64,000 bases of DNA from Opitutia bacterium Tous-C4FEB (GTDB lineage: Bacteria > Verrucomicrobiota > Verrucomicrobiia > Opitutales > Opitutaceae), in assembly GCA_002304445.1 (NCBI GenBank), contig NEVA01000006.1:1-64000 (forward strand), in the 5' to 3' direction. The notes beneath the pieces were generated by a model. The model saw nothing but the letters and a program-made list of their open reading frames with translations. It had not been told where the DNA came from and did not search any database. Numbering within the stretch: position 1 is the stretch's first letter; each line of letters begins with the position of its first letter. Both the position numbers and the translations under genes were made by a program. Below, in pieces: positions 39,620-53,361 of the stretch.

Positions 39620-40990
39620 ATGCGCCCTCTTCCCTCCGCCATGCTCTCCGCCCTCCTCCTCGCCGCACTCCTCCCCGTCGCCTCCGCCACGCCCACTCCG
39701 TCTCTCAACTCTCAACCCGCAACGCTCAACCTTGCTTCCCCCGCCCCCGCCGACACCCAGTGCTCCAGTCTCACCCAAGCCCCCGACGGCACGCTCCACC
39801 TCACTTACTACGGCCCCGCCCCCGCCGACGCCGCGCCCAACGCGCGCACGCTCTGGCACGCCACCCTCGCGCCCAACGCCACCACGTTTTCCCCGCCGCG
39901 CCCCATCGTCACGACTCCGCTCCTCATGGAGAATTGGGCCGACTTCGCGACGCTCGCCGTCGGCACCGACGGCGCACTCACCGCCCAGTGGTTTCAAAAA
40001 TCCGCGCCCGACGCCCACGGCTACAACGGTTGGTTTTCCCGTTCTGCTGACGGCGGTCGCACCTGGCGCACTCCGGCCCGGCTCGGCCACGAATTCGTCG
40101 CCCTCGCCCCGCTCAGCCAAGGTCGCACGCTTGCGGTTTGGCTCGAAAGCACGCGCCCGCTCGAAGGCCATAACCACCTTCCTCCGACGGATCCGAGCGC
40201 CCCTTACCAGCCCGCCATGAAGCTTCTCGCCCGGCTTCTCTCGCCCGACGGCACGAGCCTCGGTGACTGGACCGTCGATCCCGACGTCTGCACCTGCTGC
40301 CAAAACACCGTTGCGGTCCTCCCCGGCGACCGCGTCTTCGTCGCCTACCGCGGCCACACCCGCGACGAGATCCGCGACAACCTTCACACCACCTTCGACC
40401 TCGCCACCGCTACGTGGTCCAAGCTCACCACGCTCCGCGACGACGGCTGGAAAATCGCCGCCTGCCCCGTCAATGGCCCCGCTGCCGACTCGCTCGGCTC
40501 CACCCTCGCCGTCTCGTGGTTCACCGCCGCCGAAGGCATCGCCCGCGTCTTCGCCCGTATCTCCGTCGATGCCGGCACCGCCTTCACCGCCCCGGTGCAG
40601 ATCGACCTCGGCCGACCCATCGGTCGCCTCGAAACCGTCGCCCTGCCCGATCGCTCCGCCGTTTTTCTCTGGTTGGAAATGAAGTCGGAAAAAAATGCCG
40701 CCGGTCTCTATGCCCGCCGCCTTTTCCCCGACGGCCGCCTCTCCGCTCCGCAACTGCTCACCACCACCACGCAGGCCCGCACCGGCGGCTTCCCCCGCGC
40801 CGCCCTCCGCCTCGACGGCTCACTGCTCATTTCCTTCACCCAAACCGGCGACTCCCCCCAAGTCCGCACCCTCACCTTCGACCCCGCGCCGCTCGTCCCC
40901 CAGACCACCCTGACCTTTCGCGGTGGCGCCGGGAACTCCGGGCCCGGTGGTTTCGAATTCTGCATCGCCGTCTCCGCCACCGTCCATTAA
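39620..40990 (+). CDS. secreted sialidase-like beta-propeller protein with a CxCC motif
   Basis: The protein has 456 residues with a signal peptide (MLSALLLAALLPVASA). Repeats resembling the Asp-box of sialidases are seen (FSRSADGGRTWRTP; DGALTAQWF; DGSLLISFTQ), indicating a six-bladed propeller. The middle holds DPDVCTCCQNTVAV, a CxCC motif that could bind a metal. Sialidase catalytic residues cannot be placed with confidence, so an enzyme activity is not claimed. It lies between the TonB receptor and a CusF-like gene on the same strand, so a role in extracytoplasmic metal handling is plausible. A CTCTCAA repeat at 39701-39731 is in frame just after the signal peptide. Confidence 0.75.
   Translation: MRPLPSAMLSALLLAALLPVASATPTPSLNSQPATLNLASPAPADTQCSSLTQAPDGTLHLTYYGPAPADAAPNARTLWHATLAPNATTFSPPRPIVTTPLLMENWADFATLAVGTDGALTAQWFQKSAPDAHGYNGWFSRSADGGRTWRTPARLGHEFVALAPLSQGRTLAVWLESTRPLEGHNHLPPTDPSAPYQPAMKLLARLLSPDGTSLGDWTVDPDVCTCCQNTVAVLPGDRVFVAYRGHTRDEIRDNLHTTFDLATATWSKLTTLRDDGWKIAACPVNGPAADSLGSTLAVSWFTAAEGIARVFARISVDAGTAFTAPVQIDLGRPIGRLETVALPDRSAVFLWLEMKSEKNAAGLYARRLFPDGRLSAPQLLTTTTQARTGGFPRAALRLDGSLLISFTQTGDSPQVRTLTFDPAPLVPQTTLTFRGGAGNSGPGGFEFCIAVSATVH
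39701..39731 (+). repeat. CTCTCAA-type repeat in frame near the N-terminus of the propeller protein
   Basis: tctctcaactctcaacccgc then aacgctcaacc encodes SLNSQPATLNL directly after the predicted signal-peptide cleavage region. Confidence 0.6.
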
Positions 40991-41016
40991 ACCGCCTCTC
41001 AAATCTCCTATCTCTC

Positions 41017-41442
41017 ATGAAATTCCTCACTCTCCTCATCCTCGCCCTCGCCGCGCTCGCCCCCGTCACGCTCCGCGCCGCCGCCGAGAAAACCACCGCC
41101 AAAAACTGCGGCTGCGACTGCTGCAAAGGCAAAGCCATCTGCTGCTGCAACACCGAAGCCGCCGCCTCGGCCTCACCGGCTGCCGCCAACCCGAGCGCGC
41201 CCACCGCCGCGCCCGAGATCAAGCGCTACGCCCTCCGCGGCGTCGTCGTCGCCGTTGACGCCGACAAATCCGCCCTCCGCGTGAAGCACGAAGAAATCCC
41301 CGGCTTCATGCGCGCGATGACCATGCAGTTCAAAGTCGATGCCCCCACGCTCACCGCCGCCAAAGTCGGCGCCGCCCTCACCGGCCAGATGTCCCGCCAA
41401 GGCAAAGATTGGGTCCTCGAAGCGGTGAAGTTCCTGCCTTGA
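41017..41442 (+). CDS. periplasmic copper-binding protein with Cys cluster and CusF-like domain
   Basis: The protein has 141 residues with a signal peptide (MKFLTLLILALAALAPVTLR). After it comes a Cys-rich stretch (KNCGCDCCKGKAICCCN). The C-terminal ~75 residues are CusF-like: YALRGVVVAVDADKSALRVK then HEEIPGFMRAMTMQFKV, with the Met residues CusF uses for Cu(I)/Ag(I). The Cys-rich segment in front of a CusF fold is unusual. It follows the propeller-protein gene by 26 bases and precedes the convergent sigma operon. Confidence 0.85.
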   Translation: MKFLTLLILALAALAPVTLRAAAEKTTAKNCGCDCCKGKAICCCNTEAAASASPAAANPSAPTAAPEIKRYALRGVVVAVDADKSALRVKHEEIPGFMRAMTMQFKVDAPTLTAAKVGAALTGQMSRQGKDWVLEAVKFLP

Positions 41443-41606: not shown

Positions 41607-42239
41607 CTACGCCCACGGCATCAGCGCCGCGCGTAGTTTCTCCTTCGCCCGCGCCACCCGAGATTCCACGGCCTTCACCGAGCAGCCCAGCATGGCCGCG
41701 ATCTCTGCTTGTCGCAGGCCTTCATATTCAAACAGCACCAGCGCCTCGCGCAATTCCCCCGGCAGCGCCGCCACCGCGGCCTGCACCGCCGCCGCCCGCT
41801 CGGCCCGTTCCAGCCCGCCACCGTCTCCGGTTCTCCTCGTCTCTCCTTCTCTCCGTCCCTCCCTCTCCCCGTCTTCCGTCTCGATCCACTCTTCGAGCGC
41901 GATCGTCGGCCGTCGCCGCCACCAACGCAGTCGGTTGCGCGCGACATTCACCGCGATCGCAAAAATCCACGGCCGCACCGCCGCCCCTGCTCGAAACTGT
42001 TCCCGCTTTTGCCACACGCGGACCATCGTCTCCTGCGCCAGCTCTTCGGCCTCGCCCGCGTTGAACACGATCCGCGCAATCACCCGTTTCACCGGCAACT
42101 CCCAACGGCCGATCAGGACTCCCATCGCCGCCTCGTCTCCCGTCCGCACCCGCGCCATGAGCACCGCATCCTCCGCCGCGGCGCGCTCGACCTCTTCGTC
42201 ACCTCCCGTCGCTCCTCGACCCTCGCCCGTCGCCTTCAT
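41607..42239 (-). CDS. ECF sigma factor (CnrH-like position)
   Basis: About 210 residues from the ATG at 42239. Region 2 is LIGRWELPVKRVIARIVFNA then EAEELAQETMVRVWQKREQF and RPWIFAIAVNVARNRLRWW; region 4 is LPGELREALVLFEYEGLRQA then EIAAMLGCSVKAVESRVARA, the -35-binding helix-turn-helix. A long polar linker joins them. It is the last gene of a three-gene operon after a membrane-anchored small protein and a periplasmic sensor-like protein, the gene order of cnrYXH. Its ATG overlaps the upstream stop by one base (TGATG). It probably drives the metal genes. Confidence 0.92.
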   Translation of the reverse strand: MKATGEGRGATGGDEEVERAAAEDAVLMARVRTGDEAAMGVLIGRWELPVKRVIARIVFNAGEAEELAQETMVRVWQKREQFRAGAAVRPWIFAIAVNVARNRLRWWRRRPTIALEEWIETEDGEREGRREGETRRTGDGGGLERAERAAAVQAAVAALPGELREALVLFEYEGLRQAEIAAMLGCSVKAVESRVARAKEKLRAALMPWA

Positions 42240-42667
42240 CAAGGCTTCACCCGCACGTTCGGCGCTCCGGCATGATCGTGATCCGCCACCCGCGGCTGCA
42301 CGATCCCAAGATAACGGTGCCCCTGCTCCGCCGGCATCAATGCCGCGACGTTTTTAAAATGCTGCGTCATCGCGTCGACGCACACCCGCTCCAGCCGGGC
42401 GATCTCCGCCGCGGGCGCCTTGCGTTCCCGCGCATCGAGGATCGCCGCGCAGTGCTCGCCGCACTCCACACTGAAGTCGTCGTGTAGCTTTTTCACCGCC
42501 GCCGCCTGCGCGTCGCTCAAGCGAAATTCCACCCGCAGCCACGCCATCGCGTCGCCTGCCTGCGCCGCTCGCCGCAGCGCCGGATCGTCGTTGAGGGTGA
42601 AGAACGCCGCAAAAGCGACCGCGCCCGCCGCCACGGCAATCGCCAGAGTAATGACCCAGTTTCTCAT
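42239..42667 (-). CDS. periplasmic heavy-metal sensor-like protein (CnrX/Spy-like)
   Basis: The protein has 142 residues from the ATG at 42667. An N-terminal anchor (MRNWVITLAIAVAAGAVAFA) is followed by a helical hairpin domain with EFRLSDAQAAAVKKLHDDFS and VECGEHCAAI, then HFKNVAALMPAEQGHRYLGI. The C-x2-HC pattern and nearby His/Met are plausible metal ligands. It occupies the position of CnrX, the metal sensor that controls the anti-sigma factor in Cupriavidus. It overlaps both neighbours, which supports a single signalling unit. Confidence 0.8.
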   Translation of the reverse strand: MRNWVITLAIAVAAGAVAFAAFFTLNDDPALRRAAQAGDAMAWLRVEFRLSDAQAAAVKKLHDDFSVECGEHCAAILDARERKAPAAEIARLERVCVDAMTQHFKNVAALMPAEQGHRYLGIVQPRVADHDHAGAPNVRVKP

Positions 42668-42969
42668 CGCATCGCCATCGCCCGCGCATCGAGCCCGCTC
42701 ACGTAGTTTTGCAAAATCTCCGCCCGCTCCACCGCCACCCGCCCGCGGGCCTGCTCCCTCCCCGTCCATGCGCCCAACCCCAGCGCCACCGTCATCAACA
42801 CCGCAAACGGCACCGCCCGGGCCCGCGCAAATCCCGCCCACGCCGCGTCGCCCCGCGCCCGCCCGATTCTCGCCCAAACTCCCGGGCGGAACCCGGCCGA
42901 CGCCTTCGGCTCCACCGACCACTCGGCCAACACTTGGCTCAATTTTTGATCCGACGGTTTCATCTTCAT
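42664..42969 (-). CDS. small membrane anti-sigma-like protein (CnrY-like position)
   Basis: The protein has 101 residues. The cytoplasmic N-terminus SDQKLSQVLAEWSVEPKASA then GFRPGVWARIG is followed by one membrane segment (AVPFAVLMTVALGLGAWTG) and a ~30-residue periplasmic tail. CnrY has the same layout and length (~95). No sequence homology is claimed; the anti-sigma role is inferred from size, topology and its place before a CnrX-like and an ECF sigma gene. Its stop overlaps the next start (ATGA). Confidence 0.7.
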   Translation of the reverse strand: MKMKPSDQKLSQVLAEWSVEPKASAGFRPGVWARIGRARGDAAWAGFARARAVPFAVLMTVALGLGAWTGREQARGRVAVERAEILQNYVSGLDARAMAMR

Positions 42970-43076: not shown

Positions 43077-43445
43077 ATGAAAATATCCTCCCTCCTTCTC
43101 GTTCTCGCCACCGTCTCGGCCACCTTAACCGCGTCCGCCCAAACGCCCGCCACCTCCGGCTGCACCGCTCAAAAATCGTGCTGCCTGGCGCCTCTCGCCG
43201 CTGCCGACGAGCCCTCAGCCGCCGACGCCGCCGCGATCGCCAAAGCTCGCGCCGATTATCCCCTCAAAACCTGTCTCGTCGCCGACGAAGCGTTTACCAC
43301 CATCGAGCAAGCCGTCGGCCACGTGCACCGCGTCGCCGGCCAACCCGACCGCGTCATCTTCGTCTGCTGCAACGATTGTGTCGCCGACTTCAAGGCCGCC
43401 CCCGCCAACTACCTCGCCAAACTCGACGCCGCCAAAAAGAAGTAG
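43077..43445 (+). CDS. small secreted Cys-rich protein, YHS/TRASH-like (paralogue 1)
   Basis: The protein has 122 residues with a signal peptide (MKISSLLLVLATVSATLTAS). A CTAQKSCC pair follows. The C-terminal module reads YPLKTCLVADEAF ... RVIFVCCNDCVADFKAAPAN then YLAKL, the C...CCxxC-F-x3-P pattern of YHS/TRASH metal-binding domains. The protein at 45869 carries the same module. Both flank the multicopper oxidase gene, which suggests periplasmic copper binding or delivery. Its stop codon TAG is part of a GTAG repeat foot. Confidence 0.78.
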   Translation: MKISSLLLVLATVSATLTASAQTPATSGCTAQKSCCLAPLAAADEPSAADAAAIAKARADYPLKTCLVADEAFTTIEQAVGHVHRVAGQPDRVIFVCCNDCVADFKAAPANYLAKLDAAKKK

Positions 43446-43510: not shown

Positions 43511-45850
43511 GTGTTTTTCGTTGTGACCTTCCGTCCTCCCCAGCTGCCGCGTATATCCGCGCCCCTCGCTCCGCTGTTCCTCGCCCTCCTCGCCCTGATC
43601 ACCATCCCCGCGGCTCACGCCTGTGCCAACTGCGGCGGCAAGGGCAAAGCCGGCTGGCTCGCCCGCGAACTCGCGCCCAAGGCCACCGCCCTTTACCCCA
43701 ACGCTCCGGTCGTCGATTACACGCTCGAGATTGCCGAGACCACCCTGTCACCCGCCGGTCGCCCCGTCCCCGCTCTCACTATCAACGGCTCCGTCCCCGG
43801 CCCCACCCTCCGCTTCCGCGTCGGTGATGTCGCTCGCATCATCGTCCGCAACCGCCTCGCCGCCGGCGAGACGTCCCTCCATTGGCACGGGCTCCTCCTC
43901 CCCAATCTCGAGGACGGCGTGCCCCACCTCACCACCCCGCCCATTCCCGCCGGCACCGAGCGCACCTTCGAGTTTCTCCTCACTCACGCCGGCACCTACT
44001 GGTATCACAGCCACACCGGCCTGCAGGAACAACGCGGCGTTTACGGTAGCATCGTCGTCGAGCCCGCCCCCGGCTCTCCGCCCCGCGCCGATCTTCCCCG
44101 CATCGACCACGATCACGTCGTCGTGTTGTCCGATTGGACCAACGACAACCCCGACGCCGTCATGCGCTCGCTCCTCCGCGGCAGCGACTGGTTCGCGATC
44201 CGCAAAAACACCGCCCAATCCCTCCTCGGCGCCTACCGCTCCGGCCATCTCCGCGACTTCCTGAAACGCGAGCGCGCCCGCATGCTCCCGATGGATCTGT
44301 CCGACGTCGCCTACGACGCCTTTCTCCTCAACGGCCAGTCCGTTTCCCGCCTCCCCGCCCGCCCCGGCGATACCATCCGCCTCCGCGTCATCAACGCCGG
44401 TGCCTCGACTTACTTCTACCTGAGTTCCGCCGCCGGACCGCTCACAATCGTCGCCGCCGACGGCATGGACGTAGCGCCGATCAAACAAAACCGGCTCCTC
44501 ATCGGCATGGCGGAAACTTACGACGTCCTCGTCACCGTTCCCCTTTCACCCGCCGCCGCCGCTTGGGAAATCCGCGCCACCGCCCAAGACAACTCCGGCC
44601 ACGCCTCCCTCTTCGTTGGCGACCCCGCCGGCCCCGCGCAAAACGCCCCGCCGCCCGGTCCGCTCGAAATCTACAACATGGACGCCGCCCTCTCGGTGAT
44701 CCTCGCCCAACACGACGAGACCGGCGACATCACCGACACCGATGCCCTTGCCGCCGAGGTCGACCGTCCGCTGCCACCCTACGTCCGCCTCCGCTCGCCC
44801 ACCCCCACCACCCTCCCCGCCGCCGCACCTCGCCGCTCCGTCACCCTCAAGCTCACCGGCGACATGACCCGTTACCTCTGGTCTCTCGACGATCGCACGA
44901 TGGACGAAGAAAGCACCATCGCGGTGAAGAAGGGCGAAGTCCTCCGCCTCGTCCTCGTGAACAACACGATGATGCACCATCCGATGCATCTCCACGGACA
45001 CTTTTTTCGGCTCCTCATCCCCGATGCCGGCGACCCTGCCTACGCCCCGCTCAAACACACGGTCGACGTCCCGCCCATGAGCCGCCGCACCATCGAGTTT
45101 CTCGCCAGCGAGGACCGCGACTGGCTGTTCCACTGCCATCTCCTTTACCACATGATGGCCGGCATGGCGCGGGTCGTAAGCTACGAAAGTGGCACGGGCG
45201 TCTCGCCCGTGGTCCCAGGTAGCTTGGGCGTCCCGCCCAAGTTCCCGCCCAAGTCCGCTCCCCGTCCGATTGGCACGGGCGTCCCGCCCGTGATTCCGAA
45301 TTCTTCCACTTCCGCTTCAAATTCAACCCCCGCCCCCAACCTCGGTGAACACGCCAAACCTCACACCTACGCCTGGCTCGACGTCACCCTGCAATCCCAC
45401 CTCAGCACCGGCCACGGCACCGTCCAAACCGGCCGCGACAACCTCAACCTCAGTTGGGAAACCGGTTGGGCCCGCGTCGACGACACCGGCTTCGAAATCG
45501 ACGCAACCTACTCCCGCTATTTCAACCCCCGCTGGACCGCCTTCGCCGGCCTCCGCGCCGCAAACCTCACCGCCACGCGCCACTCCGCGATCGCTGGCGC
45601 CACGTACCGCCTGCCCTACCTCGTCGATTTCACCACCACGCTCCAAAGCAACGGCGACGCCCGTTTCTCCCTCGCCAAAAATCTCCCACTCACCGCCCGC
45701 CTCGGCCTCCAGCTCCACGTCGAATACGACACCGCGCTGCGCTTCGCCTCGACCGTCACGCTTGCCTACACCGTTTCAAAAACCATCTCCTTCGTCGCAT
45801 CCCATGACGGCGACTACGGCCTCGGCGCCGGCGTCGCCGTCCGTTTTTAA
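43511..45850 (+). CDS. multicopper oxidase (CopA-like) fused to a CopB-like outer-membrane beta-barrel
   Basis: The protein has 779 residues from a GTG at 43511; a GTG at 43523 is also possible. After a signal peptide (LFLALLALITIPAAHACANC) come the copper sites: SLHWHGLLLP, WYHSHTGLQE, HHPMHLHGHFFR and LFHCHLLYHMMAGM, so all type 1, 2 and 3 ligands are present. The oxidase part ends near residue 560. A repeat-derived Pro-rich linker follows. Residues ~615-779 look like a CopB-type barrel (YAWLDVTLQSHLSTGHGTVQ ... VDFTTTLQSNGDARFSLAKN, ending in VAVRF). It would oxidise Cu(I) in the periplasm while tethered to the outer membrane. Confidence 0.88.
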   Translation: MFFVVTFRPPQLPRISAPLAPLFLALLALITIPAAHACANCGGKGKAGWLARELAPKATALYPNAPVVDYTLEIAETTLSPAGRPVPALTINGSVPGPTLRFRVGDVARIIVRNRLAAGETSLHWHGLLLPNLEDGVPHLTTPPIPAGTERTFEFLLTHAGTYWYHSHTGLQEQRGVYGSIVVEPAPGSPPRADLPRIDHDHVVVLSDWTNDNPDAVMRSLLRGSDWFAIRKNTAQSLLGAYRSGHLRDFLKRERARMLPMDLSDVAYDAFLLNGQSVSRLPARPGDTIRLRVINAGASTYFYLSSAAGPLTIVAADGMDVAPIKQNRLLIGMAETYDVLVTVPLSPAAAAWEIRATAQDNSGHASLFVGDPAGPAQNAPPPGPLEIYNMDAALSVILAQHDETGDITDTDALAAEVDRPLPPYVRLRSPTPTTLPAAAPRRSVTLKLTGDMTRYLWSLDDRTMDEESTIAVKKGEVLRLVLVNNTMMHHPMHLHGHFFRLLIPDAGDPAYAPLKHTVDVPPMSRRTIEFLASEDRDWLFHCHLLYHMMAGMARVVSYESGTGVSPVVPGSLGVPPKFPPKSAPRPIGTGVPPVIPNSSTSASNSTPAPNLGEHAKPHTYAWLDVTLQSHLSTGHGTVQTGRDNLNLSWETGWARVDDTGFEIDATYSRYFNPRWTAFAGLRAANLTATRHSAIAGATYRLPYLVDFTTTLQSNGDARFSLAKNLPLTARLGLQLHVEYDTALRFASTVTLAYTVSKTISFVASHDGDYGLGAGVAVRF
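45191..45297 (+). repeat. three GGGCGTC-palindrome units in the oxidase-barrel linker
   Basis: ggcacgggcgtctcgcccgt at 45191, agcttgggcgtcccgcccaa at 45221 and ggcacgggcgtcccgcccgt at 45272 are related palindromes. They encode GTGVSPVVPGSLGVPPKFPP then GTGVPPVIP. Confidence 0.75.
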
Positions 45851-47458: not shown

Positions 47459-47567
47459 CGCGCTCGCCCAGCGAGCCGCCCGTTCCGTCTCCGCGCTTTC
47501 GCGGAGCCCGTCCCCGCCACGAGCAGCCGCGTCGGCCTGCCTTCACTCCATCGTCCGTATTTTTCCC

Positions 47568-48803
47568 ATGCGTTTACCTGTTTTCACTCTCCTTTTGCTC
47601 ACCGCCGCGACGCTCACCGCCGCCGAGCGCCCGCTCACGCTCGCCGACGCCCTCGCCCGCGTCGAAGCCGGCCACCCTTTCCTGCGCACGCGCGACGCCG
47701 AATCCCGCCTCGCCTCCGCTCGCTCGGCCCAAGCCTCCGCGCGCCCCGCCGCGGAGATTTCCCTCCAATTTGAAAACGCCCTTGGCACCAGCGAACTCAG
47801 CGCCGCCCGCAGCCTCGAAACCACCCTCCAGCTCAGCCGGGCCATCGATCTCGCCGACCGCCGTGCCTCCCGCAACACCGTCGCCTCCGCGCGCAACGAC
47901 GCCGAGCAACTGGCGTGGGCGGAACGCCGCCGCGAACTCCACGCCGAGGCCGCATGCCGCTTCATCCGCGTTGTCGCCGCCCAAGCCGAACTCATCGCCT
48001 CGCGCGAATTCGTCGCCCTCGCCCTAAGCACGGCCGAGACCGTCGCCACCCAAGCCCGCGCCCACGTCGCTCTGCCTGCCGACATCGCCCGCACCCGCCT
48101 CGCCCTCGCCGAGGCCACCCTCGAGAGCGAACACGCCGAGCACCTCCTGCTCTCCGCTCGCCAATCCCTCGCTTCGCTCTGGGGTGCCCCCGTTCCCGAT
48201 TTCACCACCGCCTTGGCCGATCTTACCACGCTCCCAGCCGTCGCACCTTACGAGACGCTCGTCGCCCGCCTCACGGGCACGCCTGCCCAAGCCCGCTACG
48301 CCGCGCTCACCCGCTGGCGCGACGCCCAAGAACGCCTCGCCCGCTACGAGGCCGCCCGGGGCGAGACCCGCTGGTCCGCCGGCCTCCGCCGCGTCGAAGC
48401 CACCGATGATTTCGGCTTCGTCGTCGGCCTCGGCTACGCCCTCCCCAATCGGGCCTCCGGCGAAGCGAGCGCCTCCGAAGCCCGCGCCGAGCGCGACCGC
48501 GCCGCCGCCGAGGGCGAGGCTGCCCTCCACGCCGCCCGCGCCACGCTCTTTTCCCTGCATCAGGAGCTCGGCCACGCCCGCATCGCGCACGACACCGCCC
48601 GCGACGAACTCATCCCGGCCGCCACCGCGTGGCTCACCGCCATCGACGCCGGCCTCGCCGCCGGCCGCTATCACGCCCGCGACCAACTCGAAGCCCGCGT
48701 CGCCCTCTTCTCCGCCCGCCGCCGCCAGGTCCAGGCCGCCGCCGAATACCACGCCACCCTCGTCGAAATCGAACACCTCCTCGCCACCCCCGCCTCGTCC
48801 TAA
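47568..48803 (+). CDS. outer-membrane factor of an RND pump (CzcC/TolC family)
   Basis: The protein has 411 residues with a signal peptide (LPVFTLLLLTAATLTAAERP). The OEP family start is LTLADALARVEAGHPFLRTR; the rest is rich in heptad-like Ala/Arg coils (residues 40-200 and 250-400), as in TolC trimers. QLSRAIDLADRRASRNTVAS and GEASASEARAERDRAAAEGE are characteristic coiled regions. It forms the outer-membrane channel for CzcB and CzcA encoded directly downstream; 23 bases separate it from czcB. Confidence 0.88.
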   Translation: MRLPVFTLLLLTAATLTAAERPLTLADALARVEAGHPFLRTRDAESRLASARSAQASARPAAEISLQFENALGTSELSAARSLETTLQLSRAIDLADRRASRNTVASARNDAEQLAWAERRRELHAEAACRFIRVVAAQAELIASREFVALALSTAETVATQARAHVALPADIARTRLALAEATLESEHAEHLLLSARQSLASLWGAPVPDFTTALADLTTLPAVAPYETLVARLTGTPAQARYAALTRWRDAQERLARYEAARGETRWSAGLRRVEATDDFGFVVGLGYALPNRASGEASASEARAERDRAAAEGEAALHAARATLFSLHQELGHARIAHDTARDELIPAATAWLTAIDAGLAAGRYHARDQLEARVALFSARRRQVQAAAEYHATLVEIEHLLATPASS

Positions 48804-48826
48804 ATTTCTCCGCTCCCAAATTTATC

Positions 48827-53361
<4,535 letters not shown>

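Follow-up and report, generated by a model that had tools for sequence, protein, structure and literature searches.

A multicopper oxidase and a CopB-like barrel encoded in one reading frame: a predicted outer-membrane-tethered Cu(I) oxidase in an Opitutaceae genome

The window considered here, i.e., the whole stretch of DNA that was analysed, comprises the 64,000 nucleotides at positions 1 to 64,000 of contig NEVA01000006.1 from Opitutia bacterium Tous-C4FEB, a member of the Opitutaceae whose assembly is a draft of 39 contigs. On the forward strand of this window the genes for a CusF-like protein, a 122-residue Cys-containing protein, a multicopper oxidase fused to a CopB-like barrel and a YHS/TRASH-like protein are followed, in that order, by the OEP, MFP and RND genes of a Cus-type efflux system (Table 1). 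Divergent from these copper genes, at 41607-42969 on the reverse strand, is a CnrYXH-like set that consists of an ECF sigma factor, a Metal_resist protein, which we take by resemblance to be CnrX-like, and a short protein that is presumably the counterpart of a CnrY-like anti-sigma factor. These neighbours (the CusF-like protein, the CnrYXH-like ECF set, the Cus-type RND pump and the YHS protein) point to copper resistance as the setting of the fusion gene. A scan for sigma-70 promoters between 42900 and 46400 found none.

Table 1. Features of the fusion gene and its neighbourhood, in positions of the window
Feature	Position	Strand	Basis or remark
CusF-like protein with Cys-rich N-terminal stretch	41017..41442	+	CusF_Ec 9.1e-10 in frame 40414-41442
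ECF sigma factor	41607..42242	-	Sigma70_r2, r4_2
Metal_resist protein, candidate CnrX-like metal sensor	42239..42673	-	Metal_resist 3.2e-4, below cut-off
Short protein at CnrY-like anti-sigma position	42664..42969	-	Position and length; no Pfam match
Cys-containing protein of 122 aa, a relative of the YHS protein behind the fusion	43077..43445	+	Weak TRASH match, E 0.03
Fused multicopper oxidase/CopB-like barrel gene, 779 aa	43511..45850	+	Start GTG 43511 or GTG 43523
Putative signal peptide	43511..43621	+	Hydrophobic core, then AHA; no twin-arginine motif
CANCGG Cys pair right behind the supposed cleavage site	43622..43639	+	Alignment
Three-domain multicopper oxidase, residues 67-560	43709..45190	+	Pfam; NCBIfam TIGR01480
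In-frame linker insertion with three units of a dispersed hairpin repeat	45185..45297	+	Comparison with congeners; 3' edge uncertain
CopB-like 12-strand barrel domain, residues 619-779, C-terminal F	45365..45847	+	Pfam, predicted structure, profile comparison
Small, apparently exported YHS/TRASH-like Cys protein, 100 aa	45869..46171	+	Pfam below cut-off
Cus-type tripartite efflux genes	47565..53361	+	OEP 47565-48803, MFP 48818-50119, RND 50179-53361

The fusion gene is an uninterrupted frame that encodes a single protein, the only match to the fusion in its own genome. Near the two alternative GTG starts, the ATG of two congeners aligns at 43520, which is GTT in this genome. Cleavage of the putative signal peptide before C38 was assigned by eye, and with this assignment the mature forms of the Opitutaceae-type fusions would start with CxxCGG. 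Residues C38, C41, G42 and G43 are invariant in two overlapping sets of aligned Opitutaceae-type fusions (9 of 9 and 13 of 13 rows); the Cys pair is missing from all five Bacteroidota rows tested and from most rows of family f10, and is present in several rows of family f14. Anchoring as a lipoprotein through the Cys that follows the signal was considered and judged unlikely, since AHA-C does not match the usual lipobox.

An earlier note, made from the letters of the sequence, had described this gene as an oxidase-barrel fusion in one frame, with all four copper-ligand motifs in the first ~560 residues, and on both points it was right. The motifs HWHG (residues 124-127), HSH (166-168), HHPMHLHGH (489-497) and HCHLLYHM (541-548) all precede residue 560, and they fall within an oxidase part for which Pfam gives three matches above cut-off, to Cu-oxidase_3 (74-186), Cu-oxidase (201-359) and Cu-oxidase_2 (440-559). 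Among the NCBIfam models, TIGR01480 (copper resistance system multicopper oxidase, copper_res_A) scores best, at 372.6 bits, which is below its curated cut-off of 478.95. The same four ligand patterns are found in all 44 fused proteins compared, and members from genus g67 of family f10 and from the Bacteroidota have Met/His-rich inserts before the third domain.

Among relatives, no other part of the protein differs in length as much as the linker between oxidase and barrel. Two congeners whose fusion proteins share 93 and 94% identity with that of Tous-C4FEB have no repeat segment; the Tous-C4FEB linker is ~102 nt longer than theirs, and the extra stretch, which starts after the AGCTAC ending at 45184, contains three 27-nt repeat units (45190-45297), of which the second is 74% like the first. 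The inserted segment folds into three hairpins with a z of -4.9, and none of 200 shuffles was as stable. At up to 3 mismatches, 25 genomic sites carry the repeat, including two in this linker, as against none for the reversed control; an earlier, shorter repeat pattern had given a weaker contrast (12 versus 4 in the control). The linkers of the other relatives aligned likewise do not have these repeats. It is clear from these comparisons that a dispersed palindromic repeat has landed in frame in the linker as a private insertion. The repeats of what the earlier note called a repeat-built linker are therefore present, but they have no counterpart in the congeners and are not part of the design of the protein; the idea of a functional spacer was rejected for the same reasons, the repeat being dispersed and missing in both congeners. 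This linker has no Met, Met-containing linkers or inserts occur in some relatives, and no disordered Met/His-rich region of the kind at the PcoB N-terminus precedes the barrel in this protein.

The C-terminal domain, whose last residue is the aromatic F779, as had been remarked from the sequence, was modelled as a barrel of 12 strands (residues 619-778) from an input of 13 sequences, those of this protein and of the 12 named loci described below. The ten-residue blocks of the strand region have pLDDT values of 69-88, and the mean for the C-terminal 222 residues is 70.2, the low part being the linker. A model of the full-length protein also gives 12 barrel strands, at a mean pLDDT of 49.9 that is too poor to place the two domains. 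With the barrel model as query, Foldseek ranks PcoB (7pge) first (E 3.2e-7, TM-score 0.51/0.57), and VIA-align likewise puts 7pge first (Z 16.9, 161 residues, 3.4 A), with VhGalP in effect tied (Z 16.6) and KdgM, NanC and OMPLA close behind (14.3-15.4), so that the fold alone is not specific and excludes no family. By profile comparison the domain is a relative of CopB: hhalign aligned 26 diverse fused barrels with CopB and E. coli PcoB over 113 columns (probability 95.7, E 9.3e-9), where earlier, small alignments had given probabilities of 58.7 and 71.9. Single-sequence matches are weaker, with Pfam CopB (PF05275) found at residues 660-743 at E 7e-5 and 22.9 bits for the whole protein and at 26.6 bits for the isolated barrel domain, both below the gathering cut-off of 27. 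Pfam CopB is the family hit most often among the 26 fused barrels, with 11 matches at 0.01 or better, ahead of OMP_b-brl (7), DUF481 (2) and three further families (1 each). Searched against the sequences of solved structures, the fused-barrel profile ranks a designed barrel (E 5.7e-5) above 7pge (E 0.0073). The barrel proposed in the earlier note is thus upheld by model, fold search and profile.

Nine of 120 family genomes (G000, G018, G062, G007, G004, G054, G109, G041 and G117) encode this fusion in a single frame, and a scan by the C-terminal domain found the oxidase in frame with the barrel at all 12 named loci (L044-L055), the record titles of which read Opitutus, Opitutae, Opitutaceae, Candidatus Didemnitutus or Verrucomicrobiota. 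Among 387 genomes of the phylum, for which at most two candidates per genome were scored, the full-length profile finds some match in 75, and 29 carry an intact fusion, 19 of these as a single match that reaches the model end and 10 by reading of the locus (G195, G147, G144, G220, G178, G150, G320, G347, G293 and G138). Within the latter group, G195, G220, G347 and G138 have no separate barrel match listed and were counted since their tails are nearly the same as in congeners; two genomes were left out of the 29, G222 because its frame is broken and G366 because its copy is broken or partial. The break in G222, a single-contig genome, lies inside the barrel (L111, G222:C1:2243000-2250000).

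The fusion is also carried by plasmids of other phyla. Of 72,556 plasmid records searched, 3971 have some match to the fusion protein and 12 have one place that covers at least 80% of it; among the matches listed, rows at 80-82% coverage belong to Hymenobacter, Mucilaginibacter, Bernardetia and Ornithobacterium. Ten regions among the best 60 of the 3971 were opened (L113-L116, L118 and L160-L164), and all ten genes proved to be fused, with tails of 184-215 aa past the last copper motif, some of which had no barrel match in the plasmid search. Nine are from Bacteroidota (two from Hymenobacter and one each from Mucilaginibacter, Pontibacter, Bernardetia, Fibrella, Spirosoma, Flavobacterium and Ornithobacterium) and one is from the Fusobacteriota (Ilyobacter polytropus). 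Their annotation reads "multicopper oxidase domain-containing protein" in nine cases and "multicopper oxidase type 3" in the tenth, i.e., the barrel has been overlooked. That an assembly or sequencing error joined two genes in the Tous-C4FEB contig, for example through a merged stop codon, is refuted by the recurrence of the same single open frame across genomes of the phylum and on plasmids from Bacteroidota and Fusobacteriota.

The premise from which the earlier note started, that CopA and CopB are normally separate proteins, stands only in part: separate pairs do occur, with a separate CopA beside a full CopB in 8 of the 387 phylum genomes (G003, G007, G156, G164, G238, G269, G305 and G356), but the fused exceptions are many. 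A strict co-exclusion of the fusion and separate copAB is not claimed, as the numbers are small and G007 has both. In that genome (L099, G007:C7:150000-166000) the fusion and a separate, Tat-type copA with copB lie in one cluster.

Trees of the oxidase part were built with rows from fetched loci, chosen by the length of the tail (more than 150 aa for fused and less than 80 aa for separate proteins), a choice by which other tails would be missed. In the first tree, 44 fused rows lie on one side of a branch (98/96), the other side of which holds 11 separate CopA/PcoA and one outgroup on a very long branch. When five plasmid rows were added and the outgroup was omitted, the 49 fused rows were set apart from the 11 separate CopA/PcoA by a branch of 100/100, the tree being unrooted and displayed with a midpoint root. 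PcoA (L117) sits with the other separate CopA, across this branch from the fused rows, where the root is not fixed. The tails of the five added plasmid proteins match the fused-barrel HMM at 120-178 bits, the profile itself including close relatives of some of these proteins.

Fused and separate oxidases also differ in their presumptive export signals. A loose Tat pattern, RR.[FLM][LIVMFA], which is absent from the Tous-C4FEB fusion, is found in 1 of 44 fused proteins (L017) as compared to 10 of 11 separate ones, and in none of five further fused proteins; the strict pattern occurs in 0 of 44 and 6 of 11, respectively, and a looser test, RR followed by a hydrophobic stretch, is passed by 7 of 44 and 9 of 11. 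The sole separate CopA without the motif among the 11 (L102, G305:C12:500-5500) has its CopB adjacent. On general grounds of outer-membrane biogenesis, proteins that end in such a barrel should arrive at BAM unfolded, from which we infer a Sec route for the fusion; that most fused proteins have no Tat motif fits Sec export and BAM insertion. PcoA, on the other side of the tree, is described with a Tat signal (PMC7558416). The comparison suggests as a constraint that oxidases lose the Tat signal when they carry a barrel at the C-terminus, and in that case the oxidase would need to fold and to be loaded with copper in the periplasm.

Some of the neighbours recur at other fused loci. Of 26 fused loci searched, 19 have a relative of the YHS protein downstream of the fusion, namely all 12 named loci, 7 of 9 from other Verrucomicrobiota (not L107 and L108) and none of 5 from Bacteroidota. 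Relatives of the sigma factor occur in 6 of the 26 stretches (L044, L045, L046, L047, L051 and L053), and L099, where the stretch ends, has relatives of the Metal_resist and short proteins; the stretches vary in length, so that absences of neighbours are soft. The YHS/TRASH-like protein is a candidate copper donor. Several of the plasmid copies have as neighbours four-helix copper-binding proteins, heavy-metal P-type ATPases, HMA-domain proteins and DUF305 proteins.

On the whole, the best-supported reading is that of a predicted outer-membrane-tethered Cu(I) oxidase, in which one polypeptide would cover the work of CopA/PcoA and CopB/PcoB, and we consider this account probable. Under it, Sec would export the fusion unfolded, BAM would insert the C-terminal 12-strand barrel into the outer membrane, and the oxidase would fold and take up copper in the periplasm. 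PcoB is described as a 12-strand barrel with periplasmic termini (PMC9210255), and a like topology of the fused barrel would tether the oxidase at the inner face of the outer membrane, as the earlier note had proposed, where the flexible linker would keep it at the periplasmic opening of the barrel. Cu(I) might reach the oxidase from carriers in the periplasm, for which the CusF-like protein and the YHS protein are candidates, and its oxidation would yield Cu(II) next to a barrel that lets Cu(II) pass or handles it in some other way.

The barrel might alternatively be an anchor and nothing else, which would keep the oxidase at the outer membrane and conduct no copper; we think this unlikely, if conceivable. 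The profile alignment bears on it in both directions, in that PcoB E187 falls on D706, whereas the Cu-site residue E207 is unmatched, falling on N724 beside a gap, and D97, the Cu-site partner of E207, lies outside the aligned part, so the PcoB copper path may not be kept in the fused barrel. Conservation is similarly divided: in two family genomes the barrel resembles its counterpart less closely than the oxidase does (57 vs 75% and 64 vs 71%), which favours an anchor, but in two congeners more closely (97 and 96 vs 93 and 92%), which speaks against one, as does the use of a barrel of the CopB type rather than an arbitrary one. A second alternative, which we regard as rather improbable, has the barrel admit copper while the oxidase serves as a guard at the point of entry. 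It follows from a proposal made for PcoB, which lets Cu(II) through along a gradient in liposomes and by itself sensitises E. coli to copper; the authors of that work favour import (PMC9210255). Work on Caulobacter, however, reads PcoB as an efflux protein, the cells containing more copper once the N-terminal region of PcoB is missing (PMC12509749), and the gene setting of the fusion is one of efflux and resistance. Finally, the fusion could be a porin-oxidase for Fe(II) or another electron donor from outside the cell, as has been proposed from genome evidence for the porin-multicopper oxidase PcoAB in iron oxidisers, alongside the fused porin-cytochrome Cyc2 (PMC5566968). This we consider very improbable for genes with mostly copper-type neighbours; the ten plasmid regions opened contain one annotated heme-binding-domain protein, near the Mucilaginibacter copy, and no other cytochrome-like label.

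Among the known systems closest to the outer-membrane-tethered oxidase that we favour are the separate CopA/PcoA and CopB/PcoB, with which it has in common a three-domain oxidase with the same ligands, a related 12-strand barrel and a copper-resistance setting. It differs from them in being one polypeptide, in its place across the 100/100 branch from the 11 separate CopA, in the usual lack of a Tat motif and, with respect to PcoB, in having the oxidase where a Met/His-rich region precedes the barrel. CueO and the laccases have the multicopper oxidase fold and, to our knowledge, no barrel; the CueO model PRK10965 matches the fusion weakly (104.9 of 525 bits). Cyc2 resembles the fusion in the placement of a redox domain in front of an outer-membrane barrel, but the domain is a cytochrome rather than a copper oxidase, forms a plug within the barrel and takes part in iron oxidation, as described in PMC5566968. 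Fused PcoA-PcoB proteins were reported from five Legionella species in BMC Microbiol 2012 (PMC3548706); they join the same two partners in one gene, and the same inference, that PcoA and PcoB interact, was drawn from them. They occupy a single clause of that paper and are likened to ours by description. In a literature search at the level of listings and selected passages, in a collection with few subscription papers, we found no further fusion of this kind and none for Verrucomicrobiota or Bacteroidota. The Legionella report makes the kind known, and the design is under-described rather than unprecedented, while for a deep, apparently Sec-exported fused lineage no description was found in the literature searched.

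The fusion bears on how PcoA and PcoB work together. In Caulobacter, the level and half-life of PcoA are reported to drop without the N-terminal region of PcoB, a disordered region that has been proposed as the docking site of PcoA (PMC12509749). In the fusion the oxidase takes the place of this proposed docking region, and a natural fusion provides independent support for a physical PcoA-PcoB pair. The direction in which PcoB moves copper is contested between import (PMC9210255) and efflux (PMC12509749), and the fusion offers a one-chain system in which oxidation and flux would be measurable together.

A more far-reaching idea, which we put forward as speculation and think doubtful, is that the fused clade represents a separate and ancient class of outer-membrane copper oxidases, which left the Tat route upon gaining the barrel, which spans three phyla with a dedicated YHS donor in the Verrucomicrobiota, and in which the barrel takes Cu(II) directly from its own oxidase, coupling oxidation to passage. 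As a minor observation on the Tous-C4FEB locus itself, the Cys-rich stretch that precedes the CusF domain of the upstream CusF-like protein is unusual.
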